Below, one piece after another: positions 2,269 through 16,087 of a DNA stretch of 51,193 nucleotides. Position 1 is the stretch's first letter. The number at the start of each line of letters is the position of its first letter. The notes beneath the pieces are model-generated. The model did no database searches. It worked only from the letters and a program-made list of their open reading frames with translations, and was not told where the DNA came from. Location: positions 1 through 51,193 of the IMG/VR virus record IMGVR_UViG_3300049846_000503. One strand, given 5' to 3'. Source of the stretch: a virus. The translations under genes were made by a program, and so were the position numbers.

Positions 2269-3235
2269 TCCGGCCCGCCGCTTCACGCTTTTTTCGGGCC
2301 GATACCCTAGGGGAGTATCCCGACCTACCCTGCGCGTCTATAGGAATAACGCGCGCGTAAAGGAACCTAGGTAAACCTAGGTACAGGCGGGCCGCTATGC
2401 CGACGATACCGATGCATATATGCATTGCGGAATGGAAACCGAACATGCGTTCGAGAACATGCGTTCGGTTTCTGGCGTCTAATCTAAACTTGCAAAGGTT
2501 TGCGCAAAACCTTGCATGCGCTCGGCAGTGCCGACCGTTTATGCAGCATGCATGCGGATACACTGCATAGAGCCGGTTTTATGCAGCATACACGGTCGAA
2601 CGGATGTTCTTTTCGTACTTAAAACGGCCGTAGTGACCGGATATTGCTCCGAGGATACCTAGGACATGTTTTCGAAAAAACGGGCCGTCCTAGGCCGTTT
2701 TAAACCGGTTTAGCGTTAATGACACTGCCACGGTAGGCGTTTACTAGAACGGATGTTCGATGCATACTGCATGTTTATGCGTTTATGCAATGCATAGGCC
2801 GAAACTAGGTAAAACTAGGTAGTCGCACGCATTCGAACGCGCGTTCGAAAAGGGCCGCAAGAACGACCGAACGAAACGCGCAAACTTTCGCACAATCTTT
2901 GCCGAAACGACATGCGCTTCGATTGTGACAAGACTGCTGCAAAGACTTGCACAATCCCGCCGCACTGATAGTGACTGCTAGCGGTACGCATGCATCCCCT
3001 TTTCGACGCTCCGAACGACTAAACCCACGCCACCCCAAGCAGCCCTTGAAAATACATGCATTTTTCAAACTTCGCCGGAACAGCCGACAGGAGCCAAGAT
3101 GATGCATAATCTGACATTATGCAGGATTTTATGCATACTATGCATGGTTATGCATGAGGACTGCATAAAGATGCAGACCAGCCGGAACGAACGAGCCGGG
3201 TGCTCTCCTTTAGAAGCCTCTAGAGCATCTAGGAA

Positions 3236-3256
3236 CTTTCACCTTTCACCTTTCAC
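3236..3256. repeat. (CTTTCAC)x3 tandem repeat
   Basis: Three perfect 7-base copies about 225 bases upstream of the first rightward gene. Confidence 0.85.
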
Positions 3257-3340
3257 CTACTACTCATCATCCTAGATACCTACTTCTGATATGGGTGTTA
3301 TCCTAGATACACTCCTTGGCATCCTCCTTGTCTCTACTCT

Positions 3341-3358
3341 ATACATATACATATACAT
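3341..3358. repeat. (ATACAT)x3 tandem repeat, AT-rich
   Basis: Three perfect ATACAT copies, followed by ATAGGGG, upstream of the rightward early operon. The run contains TATACAT and could supply a -10 element, but I cannot place a matching -35 with confidence. Confidence 0.6.
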
Positions 3359-3479
3359 ATAGGGGTCTATAGGCTCTAGGAGGAGGGCATCAAGTTCGTC
3401 TCGTATAGGGTTTGCAGCGGGCCGGGAAGATGCGGTATCATGGCCCATGTTGATTGAAAACCGCTAGATGAGGCTCTCT

Positions 3480-3668
3480 ATGACTCAGGAGCAGTTGGCT
3501 GCCGTCTTCACCGAATGGGATAGGCGGTACCGTGCTAACCCCGAAGAGTTCTGGTCTGTCGTGCGTCACCTGACGCAGGAGACAGCAGACACCTACGGGG
3601 AGGCTGCATCCCGCTACTTCCTCTGGCTTGCAGCGGAGATGGGCTATGGCTCGACCGAAGAAGGTTGA
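3480..3668 (+). CDS. Small phage protein, 62 aa
   Basis: The ATG at 3480 is preferred to the ATG at 3468 because GAGG lies six bases upstream of it. The product MTQEQLAAVFTEWDRRYRANPEEFW...ASRYFLWLAAEMG resembles a small helical protein seen in many phages; function unknown. First gene of the rightward early operon, overlapping the next start by 23 bases. Confidence 0.65.
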   Translation: MTQEQLAAVFTEWDRRYRANPEEFWSVVRHLTQETADTYGEAASRYFLWLAAEMGYGSTEEG

Positions 3669-9546: not shown

Positions 9547-9631
9547 GGAAGCACCTACTGGTGCAGTAAGCGACTTGGAAAGTCGTGATTGCCGAAAGGC
9601 AGTACAGGTTCGAGTCCTGTTGCTTCCGCCA
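9547..9631 (+). tRNA. tRNA-Ser(GGA)
   Basis: Acceptor GGAAGCA/TGCTTCC, anticodon loop TTGGAAA, long variable arm (class II), T-loop TTCGAGT, encoded CCA. Reads UCC/UCU. Confidence 0.93.
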
Positions 9632-9633
9632 AT

Positions 9634-9706
9634 GCGTATGTGGTGTAGTGGTAGCACGCGGGGCACTGCCCCGAGGCCGGGGTTCGAGTCCGACTGCAGC
9701 GCACCA
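9634..9706 (+). pseudogene. Degenerate tRNA
   Basis: The D-arm (GTGTAGTGGTAGCAC), T-loop (GGTTCGAGTCC) and CCA end are intact. The acceptor stem has mismatches in its last three pairs, the T stem is largely unpaired, and the GC-rich anticodon arm gives no loop with T33. No anticodon can be assigned. Probably a decayed tRNA. Confidence 0.6.
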
Positions 9707-9708
9707 AT

Positions 9709-9793
9709 GGATGCTCGTATAGGAGCACTACGCCGCCTCGAAAGCGGTGAGAACCGAAAGGTTGTAGGGGTTCGAGTCCCTTAGCATCCGCCA
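9709..9793 (+). tRNA. tRNA-Ser(CGA)
   Basis: Acceptor GGATGCT/AGCATCC, loop CTCGAAA, long variable arm, encoded CCA. Reads UCG. Confidence 0.93.
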
Positions 9794-9795
9794 AT

Positions 9796-9880
9796 GGAAG
9801 CACCTATGGGTGCAGTACGCCTCGTGCTAAGGGGTGAGGGCCGAAAGGCCGTGTGCGTTCGAGTCGCACTGCTTCCGCCA
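9796..9880 (+). tRNA. tRNA-Ser(GCT)
   Basis: Acceptor GGAAGCA/TGCTTCC, loop GTGCTAA, long variable arm, encoded CCA. Reads AGC/AGU. Confidence 0.9.
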
Positions 9881-9882
9881 AT

Positions 9883-9969
9883 GGATGCTCCCACCGGAGC
9901 GGTTAGCCGTCTTGAAAACGGCGAGGGCTGTCAAAGGCCGTACAGGTTCGAGTCCTGTAGCATCCGCCA
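9883..9969 (+). tRNA. tRNA-Ser(TGA)
   Basis: Acceptor GGATGCT/AGCATCC, loop CTTGAAA, long variable arm, encoded CCA. Fourth serine tRNA in a row; with the others it covers all six Ser codons. Confidence 0.93.
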
Positions 9970-10019
9970 ACTACATGCGTGCCGTCCTGCATAACGACAT
10001 CAACTTCTGGTACCGGGGG

Positions 10020-10049
10020 TTGACAGTATGGGCCGACTTGTGCTACGAT
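10020..10049 (+). promoter_or_regulatory. Internal promoter within the tRNA array
   Basis: TTGACA (10020-10025), 18-base spacer, TACGAT (10044-10049). It lies in the 94-base gap after the serine cluster, 15 bases upstream of tRNA-Pro, and should restart transcription of the array. Confidence 0.7.
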
Positions 10050-10063
10050 AAGGCACTGACAAT

Positions 10064-10137
10064 CAGAGTGTGGCGTAGAGGCTGCGCACGCGGTTTGGGG
10101 CCGTGAGACGGGGGTTCGAGTCCCTCTACTCTGACCA
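10064..10137 (+). tRNA. tRNA-Pro(TGG)
   Basis: Acceptor CAGAGTG/TACTCTG, loop TTTGGGG, T-loop TTCGAGT, encoded CCA. The only proline tRNA; a U34 anticodon can read all CCN. Confidence 0.88.
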
Positions 10138-10139
10138 AT

Positions 10140-10214
10140 GGGGGTGTGGCGCAACGGGAGCGCAGGTGCTTTGCAAGCACAAGGTTCAGGGTTCGAGTCC
10201 CTGTATCTCCACCA
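10140..10214 (+). tRNA. tRNA-Ala(TGC)
   Basis: Acceptor GGGGGTG/TATCTCC with several G-U pairs, loop TTTGCAA, encoded CCA, two bases after the previous tRNA. Confidence 0.9.
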
Positions 10215-10216
10215 AT

Positions 10217-10298
10217 GGGTCGGATGGGTGCTGGATTACCCAAGGGTCTGTAAAACCCCCGTTTCGACATGCAGGTTCGAGTCCTGCTCGGCCCACCA
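10217..10298 (+). tRNA. tRNA-Tyr(GTA)
   Basis: Acceptor GGGTCGG/TCGGCCC, loop CTGTAAA, long variable arm as normal for bacterial Tyr, encoded CCA. Confidence 0.9.
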
Positions 10299-10300
10299 AT

Positions 10301-10381
10301 AGACCACGCACTAACCGAACGGGAGTTCGGAGCCGCCTCCAAAGCGGCCAGTCAGGGGTTCGAGTCCTCCGGGGTCTGCCA
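10301..10381 (+). tRNA. tRNA-Trp(CCA)
   Basis: Acceptor AGACCAC/GGGGTCT (one mismatch), loop CTCCAAA, discriminator G, encoded CCA. The D region is longer than usual and can fold as CCGAAC/GTTCGG. Confidence 0.82.
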
Positions 10382-10382
10382 T

Positions 10383-10458
10383 GCCTTGCAAGCACATTTG
10401 GCTGTGCAACTGTTTCGTAAACAGTAGGTAAAGGGTTCGAGTCCCTTGCTTGGCTCCA
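10383..10458 (+). tRNA. tRNA-Thr(CGT)
   Basis: Loop TTCGTAA, encoded CCA. Acceptor GCCTTGC/GCTTGGC has tandem T-T mismatches at pairs 4 and 5, shared with tRNA-Thr(GGT). Confidence 0.85.
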
Positions 10459-10459
10459 T

Positions 10460-10535
10460 GCCCGGTTAGTTTAGCGGCGAAAACAGTAGTTTTACACACT
10501 ACTTACCGAAGGTTCGAGTCCTTCATCGGGTACCA
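10460..10535 (+). tRNA. tRNA-Val(TAC)
   Basis: Acceptor GCCCGGT/ATCGGGT, anticodon stem GTAGT/ACTAC, loop TTTACAC, encoded CCA. Confidence 0.88.
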
Positions 10536-10536
10536 T

Positions 10537-10612
10537 GCCTTGATAGCACAATCGGCGGTGCGCGTCCTTGGTAAGGACGAGGCTCCGGGTTCGAGTCCCG
10601 GTCTTGGCTCCA
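10537..10612 (+). tRNA. tRNA-Thr(GGT)
   Basis: Loop TTGGTAA, encoded CCA. Acceptor GCCTTGA/TCTTGGC keeps the tandem T-T mismatch seen in tRNA-Thr(CGT). Confidence 0.88.
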
Positions 10613-10613
10613 T

Positions 10614-10689
10614 AGCAGGCGGCTAGGTCGGTATCTGGCAGGGCTCATAACCCTTGCAATCTCGGTTCGACTCCGAGGCACTGCAACCA
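10614..10689 (+). tRNA. Initiator-like tRNA-Met(CAT)
   Basis: Anticodon arm GGG-CTCATAA-CCC carries the three G-C pairs typical of initiator tRNA, the 3' end is GCAACCA, and pair 1-72 is an A-A mismatch, another initiator trait. Two other acceptor pairs are weak. A second CAT tRNA at 13483 lacks these traits. Confidence 0.75.
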
Positions 10690-10690
10690 T

Positions 10691-10767
10691 GTCACCTTGG
10701 CCAAGTCGGTTAAGGCACCTGCCTCTCAAGCAGGAAATCGAGGGTTCGAGTCCCTTAGGTGATACCA
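10691..10767 (+). tRNA. tRNA-Glu(CTC)
   Basis: Acceptor GTCACCT/AGGTGAT, anticodon stem CCTGC/GCAGG, loop CTCTCAA, encoded CCA. Confidence 0.9.
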
Positions 10768-10769
10768 AT

Positions 10770-10844
10770 GCAACATTGACATAGAGGCTGTGTCTCTGCC
10801 TTCCAAGCAGGTGAACGAGGGTTCGAGTCCCTCATGTTGCTCCA
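10770..10844 (+). tRNA. tRNA-Gly(TCC)
   Basis: Acceptor GCAACAT/ATGTTGC, loop CTTCCAA, encoded CCA. Confidence 0.92.
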
Positions 10845-10845
10845 A

Positions 10846-10920
10846 GGTTCTTTAGCCAAGAGGCAAGGCGGGTGCCTGCAAAGCACTCCATCGTGGGTTC
10901 GAGTCCCACAGGAACCTCCA
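10846..10920 (+). tRNA. tRNA-Cys(GCA)
   Basis: Acceptor GGTTCTT/AGGAACC, loop CTGCAAA, discriminator T, encoded CCA; one base after the previous tRNA. Confidence 0.92.
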
Positions 10921-10922
10921 AT

Positions 10923-10998
10923 ACCTTCGTAGTTCAGTGGATGAACAGCGGTCTTCTAAGCCGCGTGTACGCTGGTTCGAGTCCAGTCGAAGGTGCCA
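10923..10998 (+). tRNA. tRNA-Arg(TCT)
   Basis: Acceptor ACCTTCG/CGAAGGT, loop CTTCTAA, D-arm with TAGTTCAG, encoded CCA. Confidence 0.93.
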
Positions 10999-11002
10999 TG
11001 TT

Positions 11003-11031
11003 GGTGCAACCGGCCCTAATCCGGTTGCACC
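11003..11031 (+). other. Perfect 11-bp hairpin between tRNA-Arg and the HNH gene
   Basis: GGTGCAACCGG (11003-11013) pairs with CCGGTTGCACC (11021-11031) over a 7-base loop. No T-run follows. It may mark RNA processing or be part of the HNH element's left boundary. Confidence 0.7.
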
Positions 11032-11054
11032 GGCTGCTTATTAGGGAGGCAGCG

Positions 11055-11375
11055 ATGTACCACAACAAGAAGCACTACGAGGCAAACAAGGAATACTACT
11101 TCGCAAGAAATGAAGCGAAGCGCCGCGAAATGCAGGTATGGATGCGAGGTCTAAAGTCCGCTCCGTGTACTGACTGCGGGAATACATTTCCTTGGTATGT
11201 CATGGATTTTGACCATGTTACCGGCGATAAGGTCGGAGACATCAGCAGACTGATGCGCCGACACGCTTGGCAAAAGGTCCGAGAAGAACTCCTAAAGTGC
11301 GAACTTGTTTGTGCGAACTGCCATAGGGAAAGAACATACCAGCGTAGCGCAATGGACAGCGCAGAGGCTTCCTAA
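11055..11375 (+). CDS. HNH-type endonuclease inside the tRNA array, 106 aa
   Basis: ATG at 11055 with AGGGAGG upstream. MYHNKKHYEANKEYYFARNE... is a basic N-terminal helix, then CTDCGNTFP, 'MDFDHVTGDK' (catalytic-type DH) and 'CELVCANCHRERTY' (second Cys pair and His): the HNH/zinc-finger layout common in phage free-standing homing endonucleases. Its last 38 bases are also the first 38 bases of tRNA-Arg(CCT), so gene and tRNA are fused in sequence. This is the only protein gene in the array and looks like an insertion. Confidence 0.82.
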   Translation: MYHNKKHYEANKEYYFARNEAKRREMQVWMRGLKSAPCTDCGNTFPWYVMDFDHVTGDKVGDISRLMRRHAWQKVREELLKCELVCANCHRERTYQRSAMDSAEAS

Positions 11376-11414
11376 GCCTAAGATTTGCAGGTTCGAGTCC
11401 TGTCGTTGGTGCCA
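11338..11414 (+). tRNA. tRNA-Arg(CCT), overlapping the HNH gene
   Basis: Acceptor ACCAGCG/CGTTGGT, loop TTCCTAA, T-loop TTCGAGT, encoded CCA. The 5' half doubles as the HNH coding end including its stop. Confidence 0.9.
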
Positions 11415-11416
11415 AT

Positions 11417-11491
11417 GGTGTTACAAGCCTTGTAGCGAGGCAGTGGCCTGTGAAGCCGCCAAGCAGAGTGCGACTCTCTGGTATCACCCCA
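11417..11491 (+). tRNA. tRNA-His(GTG)
   Basis: Acceptor GGTGTTA/TATCACC (one mismatch), loop CTGTGAA, discriminator C73 as expected for His, encoded CCA. T-loop TGCGACT is atypical. No genomic G at position -1. Confidence 0.85.
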
Positions 11492-11493
11492 AT

Positions 11494-11568
11494 GTCCGTT
11501 TAGCGCAGCGGTAGCGCACCACCCCGACATGGTGGGGGTCAGAGGTCCGAACCCTCTAATGGACACCA
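11494..11568 (+). tRNA. tRNA-Val(GAC) with C33
   Basis: Acceptor GTCCGTT/AATGGAC, stem CCACC/GGTGG. The loop is CCGACAT, so position 33 is C, not the near-universal T. T-loop TCCGAAC is also unusual. Encoded CCA. Confidence 0.85.
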
Positions 11569-11569
11569 A

Positions 11570-11646
11570 CGCTCTGTACCCCAAATGGCAGAGGGAACCG
11601 GCTCAAACCCGGTGTAGTGGGAGTTCGAGTCTCCCGAGAGCGACCA
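11570..11646 (+). tRNA. tRNA-Leu(CAA), class I size
   Basis: Acceptor CGCTCTG/GAGAGCG, stem ACCGG/CCGGT, loop CTCAAAC, discriminator A, encoded CCA. The variable region is only five bases (GTAGT), whereas bacterial Leu tRNAs normally have a long arm. G7-G66 mismatch. Confidence 0.82.
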
Positions 11647-11667
11647 AACGAGCCGCACGATTAGGTG

Positions 11668-11696
11668 TTGACAGGTGGTTCAGCACCTGCTATACT
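11668..11696 (+). promoter_or_regulatory. Strong sigma70 promoter of the RNase P RNA
   Basis: TTGACA (11668-11673), 17-base spacer, TATACT (11691-11696). Start expected near 11703, exactly where the RNase P RNA's closing stem begins. Confidence 0.88.
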
Positions 11697-11703
11697 GCAC
11701 AGC

Positions 11704-12027
11704 AGAAGGACGGACTGACGCGCAAATCCGGTGACTTGTTCCCGGTGAGTGAGGAAAGTCTCCGCTCTTGGTGACAGCGTAGGGGCTAACGGCCCTCCAC
11801 CGAAAGGTGCGGATTAGAGCAACAGTGACGATGCCGCGCAAGCGGAGTGAAACGGGCAATCTCTACGCGGAGAAAGTCAGGACCCTATCGGGGAGTCACA
11901 CCACGGGTCCGGGTGACGAAAAGAGTCGGCTGGCAACAGACGACCAAGTTGGATGTCAGTCTTCTGTCGTGGGAGCCTTCGGGCGTTCGGACCACGGGAT
12001 AACAGAACGGGGCTTACAGTCCTTCTA
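11704..12027 (+). ncRNA. rnpB: RNase P RNA, bacterial A-type, compact
   Basis: Catalytic RNA that removes tRNA 5' leaders. Closing stem P1: AGAAGGAC (11704-11711) with GTCCTTCT (12019-12026). Universal core: GAGGAAAGTC (11751-11760) and ACAGAACGGGGCTTA (12002-12016). Between them the order matches E. coli RnpB: a P8-like hairpin with a TAAC loop (11781-11796), a P9-like hairpin CACC-GAAA-GGTG (11798-11809), then TAGAGCAACAGTGA, CCGCGCAAGCGG, and GCAATCTCTACGCGGAGAAAG, which aligns with GTAAACTCCACCCGGAGCAAG. At about 324 nt it is shorter than the 377 nt E. coli RNA; the P13/P14 part seems absent. Own promoter upstream; flanked on both sides by tRNAs. No RNase P protein gene was seen, so it would need the host protein. 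Confidence 0.93.
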
Positions 12028-12033
12028 ACACAT

Positions 12034-12108
12034 TGCTTCTTGGCCAAATGGTAAGGCAGGTGGTTCTGAGCCATCAGAGTCAAGGTTCGAGTCCTTGAGA
12101 AGCAGCCA
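12034..12108 (+). tRNA. tRNA-Gln(CTG)
   Basis: Acceptor TGCTTCT/AGAAGCA, loop TTCTGAG, discriminator G, encoded CCA. First tRNA after the RNase P RNA, only seven bases away. Confidence 0.9.
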
Positions 12109-12110
12109 TG

Positions 12111-12160
12111 GGTCTGTTAGTTCGACTACGGAGCGGTGATTAGCCCGCGCAGGCCACAAC
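12111..12160 (+). pseudogene. Likely 5' remnant of a tRNA
   Basis: GGGTCTGTTAGTTCGACTACGG... resembles an acceptor strand, D-arm and part of an anticodon arm, but there is no T-arm or matching 3' strand before the next tRNA begins at 12161. Confidence 0.4.
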
Positions 12161-12236
12161 GGGGACATAGCACAATCGGGAGTGCAAGACGCTGGCAGTG
12201 TCTAGGTTGCAGGTTCGAGTCCTGTTGTTTCCACCA
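12161..12236 (+). tRNA. tRNA-Ala(GGC)
   Basis: Acceptor GGGGACA/TGTTTCC with G-T pairs, anticodon stem AGACG/TGTCT, loop CTGGCAG, encoded CCA. Confidence 0.88.
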
Positions 12237-12238
12237 AT

Positions 12239-12316
12239 GCCGTCTTAGCCAAACAGGACTAAGGCACCTGCCTTTCAAGCAGGAGAATACGGGTTCGAGC
12301 CCCGTAGACGGTACCA
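12239..12316 (+). tRNA. tRNA-Glu(TTC)
   Basis: Acceptor GCCGTCT/AGACGGT, stem CCTGC/GCAGG, loop CTTTCAA, encoded CCA. Confidence 0.92.
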
Positions 12317-12318
12317 AT

Positions 12319-12394
12319 CTCTCTTTAACTCAGTGGACAGAGTACGGCGCTTCGAACGCTGTAGTCGCGGGTTCGAGTCCTGCAAGAGAGGCCA
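12319..12394 (+). tRNA. tRNA-Arg(TCG)
   Basis: Acceptor CTCTCTT/AAGAGAG, loop CTTCGAA, discriminator G, encoded CCA. Confidence 0.9.
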
Positions 12395-12395
12395 T

Positions 12396-12473
12396 ACCTA
12401 CTTGGCGCAGTTGGATTAGCGCACAGCCCTGCGAAGGCTGAGGTCGTCCGTTCGAGTCGGATAGTAGGTGCCA
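12396..12473 (+). tRNA. tRNA-Arg(GCG)
   Basis: Acceptor ACCTACT/AGTAGGT, stem CAGCC/GGCTG, loop CTGCGAA, encoded CCA. GCG replaces the usual bacterial ACG anticodon for CGU/CGC. Confidence 0.92.
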
Positions 12474-12475
12474 AT

Positions 12476-12552
12476 GCTGTTGTACCCCAATAGGCAGAGG
12501 GAGCAGGTCGAGAGCCTGTTCAGTGTGGGTTCGAGTCCCACGGGCAGCACCA
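12476..12552 (+). tRNA. tRNA-Leu(GAG), class I size, C33
   Basis: Acceptor GCTGTTG/GGGCAGC with G7-G66 mismatch, stem GCAGG/CCTGT, loop TCGAGAG with C at position 33, short variable region, discriminator A, encoded CCA. Confidence 0.82.
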
Positions 12553-12554
12553 AA

Positions 12555-12632
12555 CACACCGTACCCCAATCTGGCAGAGGGAGCGCGTTCAGACCGCGTA
12601 CAGTGCGAGTTCGAGTCTCGCGGGTGTGACCA
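12555..12632 (+). tRNA. tRNA-Leu(CAG), class I size
   Basis: Acceptor CACACCG/GGGTGTG with G7-G66 mismatch, stem GCGCG/CGCGT, loop TTCAGAC, short variable region, discriminator A, encoded CCA. Same D-arm block (TACCCCAA...GGCAGAGGGA) as the other two Leu tRNAs. Confidence 0.85.
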
Positions 12633-12633
12633 T

Positions 12634-12726
12634 GACCTTTCCCTACCTGAGCCGAGGGGCTGCTGCAGCGCCCGCTAGGGTATAACTGGGGTGAGAGTCC
12701 GTCTGGCGCGCGGGCAAGGGTCTTCA
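12634..12726 (+). ncRNA. Unassigned tRNA-like RNA
   Basis: The ends pair like an acceptor stem: GACCTTT (12634-12640) with AAGGGTC (12716-12722), followed by TTCA in place of N-CCA. The interior is GC-rich with stems (GGGC...GCCC) but has no TTCGA T-loop and no readable anticodon. Its spacing in the array fits a tRNA slot. Could be a degenerate class II tRNA. Confidence 0.4.
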
Positions 12727-12728
12727 AT

Positions 12729-12804
12729 GGGCGGGTAGTTCAACGGATGAACGGTGGTCCCTTAAACCATACGCATGAGGGTTCGAGTCCCTTTCCGCTC
12801 TCCA
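12729..12804 (+). tRNA. tRNA-Lys(CTT) with C33
   Basis: Acceptor GGGCGGG/TCCGCTC, stem GTGGT/ACCAT, loop CCCTTAA, so position 33 is C. Encoded CCA. Confidence 0.83.
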
Positions 12805-12805
12805 T

Positions 12806-12881
12806 TCTTGTGTAGGACAATCGGTAGTCCGCGCGGCTGTTAACCGTACCGTTGGTGGTTCGAGTCCACCCGCAAGAGCCA
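12806..12881 (+). tRNA. tRNA-Asn(GTT)
   Basis: Acceptor TCTTGTG/CGCAAGA, loop CTGTTAA, discriminator G, encoded CCA. Confidence 0.9.
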
Positions 12882-12883
12882 AT

Positions 12884-12959
12884 ACTGTAGTAGCACAATG
12901 GCTAGTGCGTCGGCTTGCCAAGTCGAAGGCTACGGGTTCGAGTCCCGTTTACAGTACCA
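12884..12959 (+). tRNA. tRNA-Gly(GCC)
   Basis: Acceptor ACTGTAG/TTACAGT, loop TTGCCAA, encoded CCA. Confidence 0.9.
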
Positions 12960-12961
12960 AA

Positions 12962-13040
12962 CCTCTCTGAGCACGGTAGGTATGCGTGCAGCCGTCTGAT
13001 AAGCGGCAGGCCGCTGGTTCGAGTCCAGCAGTGAGGACCA
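12962..13040 (+). tRNA. tRNA-Ile(GAT)
   Basis: Acceptor CCTCTCT/AGTGAGG (one mismatch), stem GCCGT/GCGGC, loop CTGATAA, encoded CCA. Confidence 0.9.
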
Positions 13041-13042
13041 AT

Positions 13043-13118
13043 GCTCTCGCAGTCTGCGGGTAGGGATGCTGGCTTGTCACGCCAGCGGCAGTGGGTTCGA
13101 GTCCCATGGAGAGCGCCA
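13043..13118 (+). tRNA. tRNA-Asp(GTC)
   Basis: Acceptor GCTCTCG/GGAGAGC (last pair G-G), stem CTGGC/GCCAG, loop TTGTCAC, discriminator G, encoded CCA. Confidence 0.9.
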
Positions 13119-13119
13119 A

Positions 13120-13193
13120 GCCTCTATCGTTTAACGGTAGGACAGTTGCCTTGTAAACAACTGGTTCCGGTTCGAGTCCGGGTGGAGGCTCCA
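13120..13193 (+). tRNA. tRNA-Thr(TGT)
   Basis: Acceptor GCCTCTA/TGGAGGC fully paired, unlike the other two Thr tRNAs. Loop CTTGTAA, encoded CCA. Confidence 0.9.
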
Positions 13194-13403
13194 ATAATGT
13201 TCGGTGGCCCGCTGGTGCCTGCAAGCATGTCAGCGCCGCATTGCAGTGCGGAAAGTTCGGCCTCGTCGGAGAGCGTACCCGACGATTAATACGGCTAAGG
13301 CGTGTGGAAACTCGAACCCACGCTACGCCCAAGGGGTTGACCGAAAGGTCGATGGGTGGTCTGGAAACGGAACCACGGCGTAACTCTCCTACGCGCCGAC
13401 AAT
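13194..13403 (+). ncRNA. Unknown structured RNA between tRNA-Thr and tRNA-Phe
   Basis: A 210-base gap in an array whose other spacers are 1-3 bases. It is full of hairpins: CCGCA/TGCGG (about 13235), GTCGG...CCGAC, GCGTG...CACGC (about 13300), GACC-GAAA-GGTC (about 13339) and TGGT..CTGGAAACGG..ACCA (about 13357). No protein frame with a ribosome site. I cannot match it to tmRNA, SRP RNA or 6S RNA. Confidence 0.55.
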
Positions 13404-13480
13404 GCCACTGTAACTCAGTTCGGTAGAGTGCAGGATTGAAACCCCTGTGGTCGTCGGTTCGAGGCCGACTGGTGGCACCA
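13404..13480 (+). tRNA. tRNA-Phe(GAA)
   Basis: Acceptor GCCACTG/TGGTGGC, stem CAGGA/CCCTG, loop TTGAAAC, encoded CCA. Confidence 0.87.
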
Positions 13481-13482
13481 AT

Positions 13483-13556
13483 CGCAAGTTCGTTCAATGG
13501 TAGGACGGGTGTCTCATAAGCACCGAACGATGGTTCGACTCCATCACTGGCGACCA
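13483..13556 (+). tRNA. tRNA-Met(CAT), elongator (or Ile2)
   Basis: Acceptor CGCAAGT/ACTGGCG (one mismatch), stem GGTGT/GCACC, loop CTCATAA, encoded CCA. No initiator traits. A lysidine-modified Ile role cannot be excluded from sequence. Confidence 0.85.
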
Positions 13557-13558
13557 AT

Positions 13559-13633
13559 GGGTCCGTAGCACGACGGTTGTGCAGAGGTCTTTTAAGCCAA
13601 CGGGTGTGGGTTCAAGTCCCACCGGACTCTCCA
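13559..13633 (+). tRNA. tRNA-Lys(TTT)
   Basis: Acceptor GGGTCCG/CGGACTC, loop CTTTTAA, encoded CCA. The anticodon stem is weak, with two mismatches at its outer end. Confidence 0.82.
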
Positions 13634-13634
13634 T

Positions 13635-13708
13635 CGGCCTGTCGTTTAATGGCAGGACAGCGGGCTTTGACCCCGCTGGTACCAGTTCGAGTCTGGTCGG
13701 GCCTACCA
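13635..13708 (+). tRNA. tRNA-Gln(TTG)
   Basis: Stem GCGGG/CCCGC, loop CTTTGAC, encoded CCA. Acceptor CGGCCTG/CGGGCCT has an open 1-72 pair, which suits Gln. Last tRNA of the array. Confidence 0.87.
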
Positions 13709-13717
13709 AATCTGTCC

Positions 13718-13749
13718 TTGGCATGACGGTAAACTGCCCACCATATAAT
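13718..13749 (+). promoter_or_regulatory. Possible promoter after the tRNA array (perfect -10)
   Basis: TATAAT at 13744-13749 is a perfect -10 box. The best -35 (TTGGCA, 13718-13723) is 20 bases away, too far for a classical promoter, so -35 recognition is uncertain. It would drive the leader and perhaps the virion operon. Confidence 0.45.
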
Positions 13750-14109
13750 GACGGGGCTTAGCGGTTCCGTCAGGAGCGTGCCCGAATACTCCCTCCTGCT
13801 CGGTGGGGAGGCAAGGGGACTGCGGTGCTAGAGGGCTTCATCGGGCTATCGCCAGCACGGGCCGACGCGATGAGCGGGTCCGGTTGGGCCGGGGTTACGG
13901 TGCGGCAAGGCTTGCCAGAGCCGAACGCATGTCGGGAGACTAACGCAGGGTAGAGTCGTTATGATTGTGCTTAATCAACCAATCGAGCCGTCTCTTGTGG
14001 GTAGGCAATCCCACCACTCAGCACACAGCACTGTGCTAAAACAGGCTACTACTACTCGGCCCCCTCCCGGCAACGGTCGCAGGGGGCCAATCCATTCCCA
14101 AGAGGAACC
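13750..14109 (+). ncRNA. Structured leader or ncRNA before the terminase operon
   Basis: About 360 bases with no gene but many hairpins: GACGG near 13750 can pair with CCGTC near 13988; CAGGAG/CTCCTG; GTGCT/AGCAC; GGCAA-GGC-TTGCC; TGGG/CCCA near 14000; AGCACA/TGTGCT (14020-14037); GGCCCCCT/AGGGGGCC (14058-14088). The last two sit 22-90 bases before the terminase start. Could be a discrete ncRNA, an antitermination leader or the packaging site; sequence alone does not decide. Confidence 0.5.
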
Positions 14110-14787
14110 ATGATTGACACCGAAGCCCGCCATTCCAACAGTCGAACTGGCCTAAGAAGTACAGAAGGCTCGCGGAAGACCGGCGCTGTCTCGCGCACTC
14201 GCAACACTGGTGGCGAGAGGCTCGCAGAGAAGCGCGGTCGAGGGCGTCCGCCCGGTTCCAAGAACAAGTCTAAGTCGCTTGTTCCGACAGAACTTGCAGA
14301 GCAGATGCTCATTCGCTTCGAGGGTCAAATCCCACCGGAGCACTACGAATACCTCAGGAAGGTCGTCAAGGGTGGAGAGGCCGTCTCGACAGAGAGGGAA
14401 CTCGACATCCTCATTCTGCTGCTCGGGCGCAACTTGCACCCGGCGCTGATTGAAGAAATGAACGGCCAGACCGAGATTGACCTTGACCCTGACACGGGCG
14501 AGGTTTTGGGGACGGTCAACAAGGTCGTCTTCCGCAAAGATGTCACAGAGCGCCTAAAGGTGCTGAACTCTCTCCTTGGACTTCGACATCAAGTTGAAAA
14601 GACCAAGGATGATGGGAAGGACGGCGAGCAGCCGCTTTTGAAGATTGTCGCAGACCGCAACCTCCTTGAAGGTGGAAGATTGGGCATCCTTGTTGGCGGC
14701 GTATCCGGCCCTATGGCTGGAAACCTTGACAACCTTGGACGGAGCGCCCTTCCGCCTAGAGCCGTATCAAGTCCGCTACCTGAATGA
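14110..14787 (+). CDS. Probable terminase small subunit, 225 aa
   Basis: ATG at 14110 with AGAGGA upstream. An AT-hook-like basic motif (KRGRGRPPGSKNKSK, about residues 41-55) is followed by helical, charged sequence (ELAEQMLIRFEGQIPPEHYEYLRKVVKGG). Position directly before the large subunit supports a DNA-recognition role in packaging. The last 48 codons overlap the large-subunit frame by 143 bases, which is unusual; the C-terminus could be overextended or a frameshift may be present. Confidence 0.6.
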   Translation: MIDTEARHSNSRTGLRSTEGSRKTGAVSRTRNTGGERLAEKRGRGRPPGSKNKSKSLVPTELAEQMLIRFEGQIPPEHYEYLRKVVKGGEAVSTERELDILILLLGRNLHPALIEEMNGQTEIDLDPDTGEVLGTVNKVVFRKDVTERLKVLNSLLGLRHQVEKTKDDGKDGEQPLLKIVADRNLLEGGRLGILVGGVSGPMAGNLDNLGRSALPPRAVSSPLPE

Positions 14788-16087
14788 CAATGCGTTCTTC
14801 CGCATCGTAAACAAGTCTCGGCAGATTGGCTTCTCGACCATCCTCTCTGGCGAAGTCGTCCACAAGGCGTGCGTCAGCGAGGCGTACAAGGCCAACATCA
14901 TTTCCATCAACCAGAAGGAAGCCTCGGACAAGATTGAGATTGCTCGCAATCTGTACCACAGCATTCCCGACGAGTTCAAGGAAATGCAGCCGTCGCTCAA
15001 GCCTATCCTCTGGACCGACGCTGACACTGAGATTTCGTTTCACCGCCCGCCGTTCACATCGGTCGTCATCAGCCAGCCCGCTTCGTCCGCTGTCCGTGGT
15101 GGACGCAAGGATGTCTACTTTGACGAGTTCGCGCACATCCGCGATGCCGAGAAGTTGTATCGGGCAGCGATGCCAGCCATTACCCGTGGCAACAGCCGCC
15201 TGACCATCATCAGCACTCCGCTCGGTCAGTCTGGCCTGTTCTACGATATCATGACGAACACGCAGGCTTACCCTCAGTACAGCCGCCACAGCGTTCCTTG
15301 GTGGGAGTGCTCAGCGATGGTTAGGCCGGAACTGTATGAAGAGGCTCTTGCCCTCGCCGCAGCCATCGAAGGCTCGGAAGAGCGCATCCTCAAGTACGGC
15401 ACCGACAAGATGCGGATTATCTACAACCAGTTCGGCGGCGACCTTATCGGCTTCCAGACTGAGTATGAAGCATCATTTGCAGATGAGGCGACAGCCTACT
15501 ACACTTGGGACTTGATTGTCAACTGCACCGACAATGAGCGAGCAGTTTGGCGCGAGTGGCATCCGTCGTATACGCCTGAGGGCTACATCAGCATCGGCGT
15601 AGACCTAGCCAAGGAGCGCGACCAGACCGTCTTCACGGTGGTCGAGCACATCGAGGACACCAAGAAGGTTCTGTTCACTCGGGCCACCCAAGACCCGTAC
15701 AACGAGCAGTTCGAATACATGAGCCGCCTCATCGAGGCGACGAAGGCAAACCGGGTCACAATCGACCAGACGGGTGTCGGCCAGAAGTTCGTGGAAGACG
15801 CGAAGAGACTTCTGCCTTACACCAACATCGAAGGTGTCGTCTTCACGAACGCCAAGAAGGAACAGTGGGCAACCACCCTTAAGGGCGACATGCAGACGGG
15901 GCGCGTCAGTTGGCCGAACATCGGTGACCTGAGGCGTCAAATCCACGGCATCCGCCGCACCAAGACGGAAGCCAACTTCTATAAGTTCGCTGGACAAGGG
16001 ATTGGCGACGACTACTTCTGGTCGCTCGTCCTTGCGTGCTACGGTCAGGGAAGAGTCCCGCCGCGCATGTCCTTCCTCGGCGGATAG
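14645..16087 (+). CDS. Terminase large subunit, about 480 aa
   Basis: Packaging ATPase-nuclease. The frame opens with TTG at 14645; a GTG at 14672 is an alternative. Adenine motif 'LEPYQVRYLND', Walker A-like 'NKSRQIGFST' (about residue 57), Walker B 'DVYFDEFAHI' (about 157), coupling 'TIISTP', and RNase-H-like nuclease acids in 'ISIGVDLAKERD', 'VTIDQTGVG' and 'GDDYFWSLVLA'. Length is normal for a two-domain large terminase. Confidence 0.9.
   Translation: MSQTATSLKVEDWASLLAAYPALWLETLTTLDGAPFRLEPYQVRYLNDNAFFRIVNKSRQIGFSTILSGEVVHKACVSEAYKANIISINQKEASDKIEIARNLYHSIPDEFKEMQPSLKPILWTDADTEISFHRPPFTSVVISQPASSAVRGGRKDVYFDEFAHIRDAEKLYRAAMPAITRGNSRLTIISTPLGQSGLFYDIMTNTQAYPQYSRHSVPWWECSAMVRPELYEEALALAAAIEGSEERILKYGTDKMRIIYNQFGGDLIGFQTEYEASFADEATAYYTWDLIVNCTDNERAVWREWHPSYTPEGYISIGVDLAKERDQTVFTVVEHIEDTKKVLFTRATQDPYNEQFEYMSRLIEATKANRVTIDQTGVGQKFVEDAKRLLPYTNIEGVVFTNAKKEQWATTLKGDMQTGRVSWPNIGDLRRQIHGIRRTKTEANFYKFAGQGIGDDYFWSLVLACYGQGRVPPRMSFLGG

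Follow-up and report, generated by a model that had tools for sequence, protein, structure and literature searches.

Phages often carry tens of tRNA genes, and both the reason for this and the processing of the arrays are open questions. Several structured RNAs have been described beside such genes. RNA C and RNA D of phage T4 (rnaC and rnaD, the species 1 and 2 stable RNAs) are 139 and 119 nt long and are encoded beside the T4 tRNA genes on the tRNA strand. The ROOL and GOLLD RNAs are encoded by phage and prophage genomes, in many cases close to tRNA islands (PMC12286853). Gut phages have HDV-like theta ribozymes, which are pseudoknotted, adjoin phage tRNAs and trim their 3′ ends; they are defined by a cleavage site no more than 5 nt from the tRNA 3′ end (PMC10879173). 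The manA RNA (RF01745) is also pseudoknotted and known from phage and marine sequences, and has a cis-regulatory position ahead of genes (PMC2864571).

The window, i.e. the whole stretch of DNA that was analyzed, is a 51-kb IMG/VR viral contig. It displays a tRNA array at positions 9547–13708, after which come the structural genes (terminase, portal and tape measure). Near the end of this array is a real, previously unclassified RNA of 118 nt that is supported by covariation and is termed here the core RNA. Its shape has been kept in two unrelated virus groups while the letters changed; thus it almost certainly has a task, one that probably involves the tRNAs of the virus itself.

The tRNA array and its other elements

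ARAGORN predicts 34 tRNAs in the array. The stretch 13194–13403 starts right after tRNA-Thr(tgt) and ends right before tRNA-Phe(gaa). Its position between tRNAs is as the preliminary description had it, but the accompanying claim that all other gaps are 1–3 bases is wrong: gaps of 77, 89, 94, 84, 78, 339, 387, 52 and 96 b are also present in the ARAGORN prediction. Four of these (9632–9708, 9794–9882, 10299–10382 and 10613–10690, of 77, 89, 84 and 78 b) look like tRNAs that ARAGORN missed. They display CCA ends and T-arms, with an apparent Ser(gct), an apparent Trp(cca) and a CAT anticodon, and two of the four have weak Rfam matches to tRNA or tRNA-Sec. The array total would thus be about 38 tRNAs.

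The 94-b gap (9970–10063) contains one of two promoter-like sites found (Table 1), where 1.3 are expected by chance from shuffles. The corresponding gap in the relatives L032, L035 and L036 has a similar sequence with the −10-like TATGATAC. The 339-b gap (10999–11337) opens with a long terminator-like hairpin and contains an HNH endonuclease-like open frame with the pattern CxxC..CxxC; similar DNA is present in L078.

The 387-b gap, between tRNA-Leu(caa) and tRNA-Gln(ctg), is occupied by a phage-encoded RNase P RNA that is preceded by the other promoter-like site. Matches above the gathering score are present in the same gap in L002, L004, L006, L007, L008 and L009, and likewise in L019 (at 3202–3538), while the L010 copy is truncated. 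No RNase P RNA was detected in the arrays of L027, L050 and L082, which do carry the core RNA. No description of a phage-encoded RNase P RNA was found in a literature search that covered few subscription journals.

A match to manA RNA at 13749–14024 closes the array just ahead of a gene at 14110, and is 346 nt beyond the core RNA. The score is below the gathering score (41.2 vs 55.2 bits, E = 2e-9), and the match keeps the conserved GUGGGUA..AAUCCCACC hairpin and the 3′ pseudoknot strand.

Table 1. Positions in the window of the core RNA, its structural elements and neighboring features
Feature	Positions	Strand	Evidence or remark
Promoter-like TTGACA-18-TACGAT, in the 94-b gap	10020–10049	+	10/12 match
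Promoter-like TTGACA-17-TATACT, extended −10, before RNase P RNA	11668–11696	+	11/12 match
Phage-encoded class A RNase P RNA	11702–12032	+	RF00010, 132.7 bits (gathering score 100), full length 1–367
tRNA-Thr(tgt), upstream neighbor	13120–13193	+	ARAGORN; Rfam tRNA 51.7 bits
5′ spacer/leader, lineage-specific, unconserved, 92 nt	13194–13285	+	Fold z = −0.40; relatives differ
Conserved core RNA, 118 nt	13286–13403	+	Covariance models R1 (113.9 bits) and R2 (113.4 bits); covariation
P1, GGC 13293–13295 with GCC 13327–13329	13293–13329	+	Paired in 14/14 sequences
P2 hairpin	13299–13324	+	Loop ACTCGAA 13310–13316, complement of T-loop TTCGAGT
AGG, 5′ strand of probable pseudoknot	13332–13334	+	Pairs with CCT 13388–13390 in P5 loop, 14/14
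P3 hairpin, length and loop vary in homologues	13337–13352	+	Compensatory changes; E = 0 for two pairs over 60 simulations of the null
P4 hairpin, GAAA tetraloop 13364–13367	13356–13376	+	Covarying pairs; loop invariant in all homologues
P5 hairpin, abuts P4 directly, loop AACTCTCCTA	13377–13397	+	Best covarying pair of the whole RNA
tRNA-Phe(gaa), downstream neighbor	13404–13480	+	ARAGORN; Rfam tRNA 55.1 bits

Identification, structure and homologues of the core RNA

A search of 13194–13403 against Rfam (4227 families) gives nothing at the gathering score. This agrees with the preliminary description, which had called the stretch an unidentified structured RNA among tRNAs and had set it apart from tmRNA, SRP RNA and group I introns. 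With the cut-off relaxed to E ≤ 10, a search of 361 bases shows the flanking tRNAs and chance matches and nothing else; the best non-tRNA match is LOOT (13 bits, E = 5). There is no tRNA match to E = 10 between the flanking tRNAs and ARAGORN is negative here; thus the stretch is not the degenerate tRNA pair that had been named as a finding that would overturn the description. BLASTN of the 210 nt in 50,697 cultured phage records shows only chance matches (E 3–9). The literature search mentioned above found theta ribozymes, ROOL and GOLLD described but not this core RNA.

The proposed 210-nt structured RNA stands in part. The 3′ 118 nt are conserved and covary, and the 5′ 92 nt do neither; in relatives, other modules occupy the place of this spacer. 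The fold energy of the 210 nt has z = −1.78, with 9 of 200 shuffles as good, and the homologue cores have a mean z of −1.25. Energy alone thus barely beats chance, and the above-chance evidence is the covariation and not the energy.

The core RNA displays five helices (P1–P5), an invariant GAAA-capped stem (P4) and a probable pseudoknot. The several hairpins and the GNRA cap that had been reported are present, and GAAA caps are found on more than one hairpin, but only the P4 cap is conserved while that of P3 (13343–13346) is not. Two versions of the sequence are seen, ATACGGCTA...GCCCAAGGGG...AACTCTCCTA and ATAAGCCTG...GGTGGAGGSG...CTCCCTA. Both have P1, P2, P3, P4 with its GAAA loop, P5 abutting P4, and an AGG before P3 that can pair with CCU in the P5 loop. 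The P1 pair itself differs, i.e. GGC/GCC in one version and GCC/GGT in the other. The P4–P5 region is of near-constant length and has strong sequence anchors. The AGG/CCU bases of the pseudoknot are invariant and so provide no covariation support; a weaker extension of this pairing is present in 11–13 of the 14 sequences.

Three further features were considered and not kept. A pairing of the GAAA tetraloop with an 11-nt receptor was rejected, as the receptor sequence is not in both versions. A CCCA/UGGG helix that would enclose P3 was dropped because it suits just one of the two versions. The P5 loop as an anti-Shine-Dalgarno (16S complement) sequence was also rejected, since AACUCUCC is unconserved in the second version and only CCU stays.

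The preliminary description had staked its reading on covariation in homologues, and this is present. Compensatory (double-sided) changes are found in 26 of the 29 modelled pairs in the model-fitted alignment, and the covariation score is 0.772, vs 0.216 for column shuffles and at most 0.134 for slid controls. A tree-based null was also applied, which is R-scape-like and uses a FastTree tree, 60 simulations in which substitutions are redistributed along branches, and a hand alignment that was drawn up with knowledge of the structure. Of 2415 column pairs, the 11 with the best scores all belong to predicted helices, and for four of these no null score is as high. The strong covariation together with the invariant loops across lineages shows selection on structure. 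With the absence of Rfam and degenerate-tRNA matches, it also bears out the original identification.

Relatives of the window were gathered by way of the terminase (14645–16087), which gave 23 related loci, and 48 when an alignment of it was used. Homologues of the core RNA are present on 18 viral contigs as 14 distinct sequences; these contigs represent two phage lineages whose terminases are dissimilar. In every relative with the array covered, an insert of 169–331 nt (980 nt in L021) lies between tRNA-Thr(tgt) and tRNA-Phe(gaa) or in the equivalent gap. The inserts are modular. One module is common to all and corresponds to window positions 13286–13403, and others, e.g. TATGAGTCCGTT...GGACG and GCGTCGATGCGG...CTCCCGGCCCCGG, are present in some inserts and absent from others, on one side of it or the other. 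The covariance model R1, built from 12 copies that do not include L050, L078 and L082, recovered all three of these: L050 with 29.4 bits (E = 1.3e-5), L078 with 55.4 bits (E = 5e-13) and L082 with 32.4 bits (E = 8e-7). L078 and L082 belong to the second phage lineage, in which terminase and portal are of different types.

Every copy examined is inside a tRNA array and has the orientation of its tRNAs, which flank it on both sides wherever the contig extends far enough; none of these copies is directly upstream of a protein gene. This placement argues for an independent RNA and not a cis-regulator.

Pattern scans of the viral collection added no further members, and a strict exact pattern on viral contigs found nothing. 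A relaxed pattern gave two chance matches in about 85,000 GTDB bacterial and archaeal genomes, neither of them matched by R1. A scan of 695 genomes of two phyla with R2 found nothing, which is a weak negative given its strict filters and lack of a positive control. Several single candidates were set aside: L075 is a chance match in a coding frame with no R1 match, L106 is probably a chance match too, and the L097 match (13.4 bits, E = 1.3) overlaps a tRNA and is due to chance. Homology to T4 rnaC/rnaD was also rejected, R2 run unfiltered over the T4 locus giving 4.1 bits at best.

Other modules of the inserts were noted. The module TATGAGTCCGTT...GGACGTTAAACC adjoins the core RNA in L002 (4110–4161), in L004 (2968–3013) and in the L021 insert; its sequence is loosely hammerhead-like, and no Rfam ribozyme match with E < 0.5 was found in L002 and L006. 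Another, GCGTCGATGCGG...CTCCCGGCCCCGG...GCGC, of about 105 nt, is 3′ of the core in L004 (3138–3249), L005, L006, L008, L010 and L021. The second-lineage arrays (L081–L100) have many inter-tRNA gaps of 200–1500 nt, in part conserved from contig to contig and for the most part unexplained; these may contain further RNAs or homing endonucleases.

Complementarity of the P2 loop to tRNA T-loops

The P2 loop of the window's lineage reads ACUCGAA, an exact antisense to the T-loop UUCGAGU. The T-loop TTCGAGT is found in 28 of the 34 window tRNAs, which is unusually uniform. It is present in 67–93% of tRNAs in 10 of the 12 arrays that carry ACTCGAA or a near variant, the exceptions being L012 (2 of 4 tRNAs) and L027 (22%). 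Elsewhere the share is 9% in arrays whose RNA is without that loop, 8% in arrays without the RNA and 14–29% in five cultured phages, a difference that was noticed post hoc and amounts in essence to a single phylogenetic contrast. L048 has 47% TTCGAGT tRNAs though no core RNA was found there.

The near variants are ACTCGGA in L041, which is complementary with one G-U, and ACTCGAT in L010. The loop stays ACTCG(A/G)(A/T) while the surrounding P2 stem covaries, and complementarity often extends to 9–11 nt, into the T-stem. L050, L078 and L082 are without the ACTCGAA loop, which excludes T-loop pairing as the core function for the family as a whole.

In a folded tRNA the T-loop is normally buried. 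For the window's lineage only, the complementarity hints at pairing with the T-loop, which is the leading specific hypothesis although a rather doubtful one. The P2 loop might conceivably kiss the homogenised UUCGAGU T-loops and thereby set phage tRNAs or their precursors apart from those of the host, so that they could be chaperoned, selectively processed or protected. The arrays concerned would be those that encode a phage RNase P RNA as well.

Possible function and relation to known RNAs

On balance we favor, with confidence only a little better than even, a stand-alone RNA that acts in trans, is linked to tRNA or translation and is excised by tRNA processing. The core RNA would be a noncoding RNA of about 118 nt with P1–P5, a probable AGG/CCU pseudoknot and P4 stacked on P5, and would not be the leader of a protein gene. 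There is no promoter-like site within 13194–13285 and no terminator-like site adjoins the core RNA. It is plausible that the core RNA is transcribed together with the array tRNAs and released by RNase P at tRNA-Phe, as was originally proposed. Excision would involve 3′-end processing of tRNA-Thr upstream and RNase P cleavage downstream, possibly with the phage's own RNase P RNA; cleavage at the tRNA-Phe start would set the 3′ end of the core RNA. Release at tRNA-Phe is not general, since another RNA module intervenes between the core RNA and tRNA-Phe in several relatives. Once freed, the RNA would act in trans during infection, with tRNA or translation as its most likely target. Its P2 loop could, in the window's lineage, pair with the phage T-loops as a selective antisense, chaperone or tag.

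A protein-binding decoy or anti-defence RNA that is unrelated to the tRNAs and uses the array as a mere expression platform is the rival to be taken most seriously, although it is unlikely. The core is conserved in the three contigs without the T-loop antisense, so its basic function may differ, and T4 RNA C and D, ROOL and GOLLD are orphan RNAs in similar places; yet the decoy comes without a candidate target and leaves the strict link with tRNA arrays in two lineages unexplained. It is improbable that the core RNA is a self-cleaving ribozyme that trims neighboring tRNAs. The theta ribozymes are a precedent for a compact, probably pseudoknotted RNA beside phage tRNAs (PMC10879173), and the L078 and L012 cores begin a few bases past a tRNA 3′ end. 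However, the core in the window begins 93 nt past tRNA-Thr, which is not within the 5 nt that define a theta-ribozyme site. The topology is one of hairpins with a single loop pseudoknot and not the HDV-like nested double pseudoknot, no ribozyme family matches to E = 10, and with one copy per array most tRNAs are without any.

A cis-regulatory element or riboswitch carried with the array would suit the conserved, compact and aptamer-like fold, and the manA-like RNA at the end of the same array is of the cis-regulatory kind. The position of all examined homologues among tRNAs and not in a 5′ UTR, together with the lack of an adjoining terminator-like site, makes this quite improbable. Least credible of all is a degenerate tRNA pair or a functionless structural spacer. 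The RNA does sit in a tRNA position, and several other gaps are tRNAs missed by ARAGORN, but nothing here scores as a tRNA, and covariation and invariant loops contradict this origin.

Compared with the other RNAs of its own array, the core RNA resembles the RNase P RNA (RF00010) in being structured and in its proposed link with tRNA processing. It has no homology to RNase P RNA and is also present in some arrays that gave no RNase P RNA match. It differs from manA RNA in sequence and architecture, as well as in not being placed before genes. The theta ribozymes have a tRNA 3′-end cleavage site, an HDV fold and a catalytic C, none of which is seen in the core RNA.

The core RNA is encoded within a tRNA array on the same strand, and is a new family within a known kind, the orphan structured RNAs of phage tRNA islands. 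Its presence in the arrays of two unrelated lineages, one with an RNase P RNA, suggests that these phages supply RNA factors of tRNA metabolism in addition to tRNAs. A functional T-loop match would give the virus a means of marking and handling the tRNA pool that it encodes. None of the RNAs already known from phage tRNA islands matches the core RNA in sequence, structure or size. T4 rnaC and rnaD are at one edge of the T4 cluster, whereas the core RNA is internal. ROOL and GOLLD are likewise orphan and ornate, but are hundreds of nt long and assemble nanocages, whereas the core RNA has 118 nt and no Rfam match. It thus adds a small and tractable member to the orphan RNAs near phage tRNA islands, i.e. 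T4 RNA C and D, ROOL and GOLLD.
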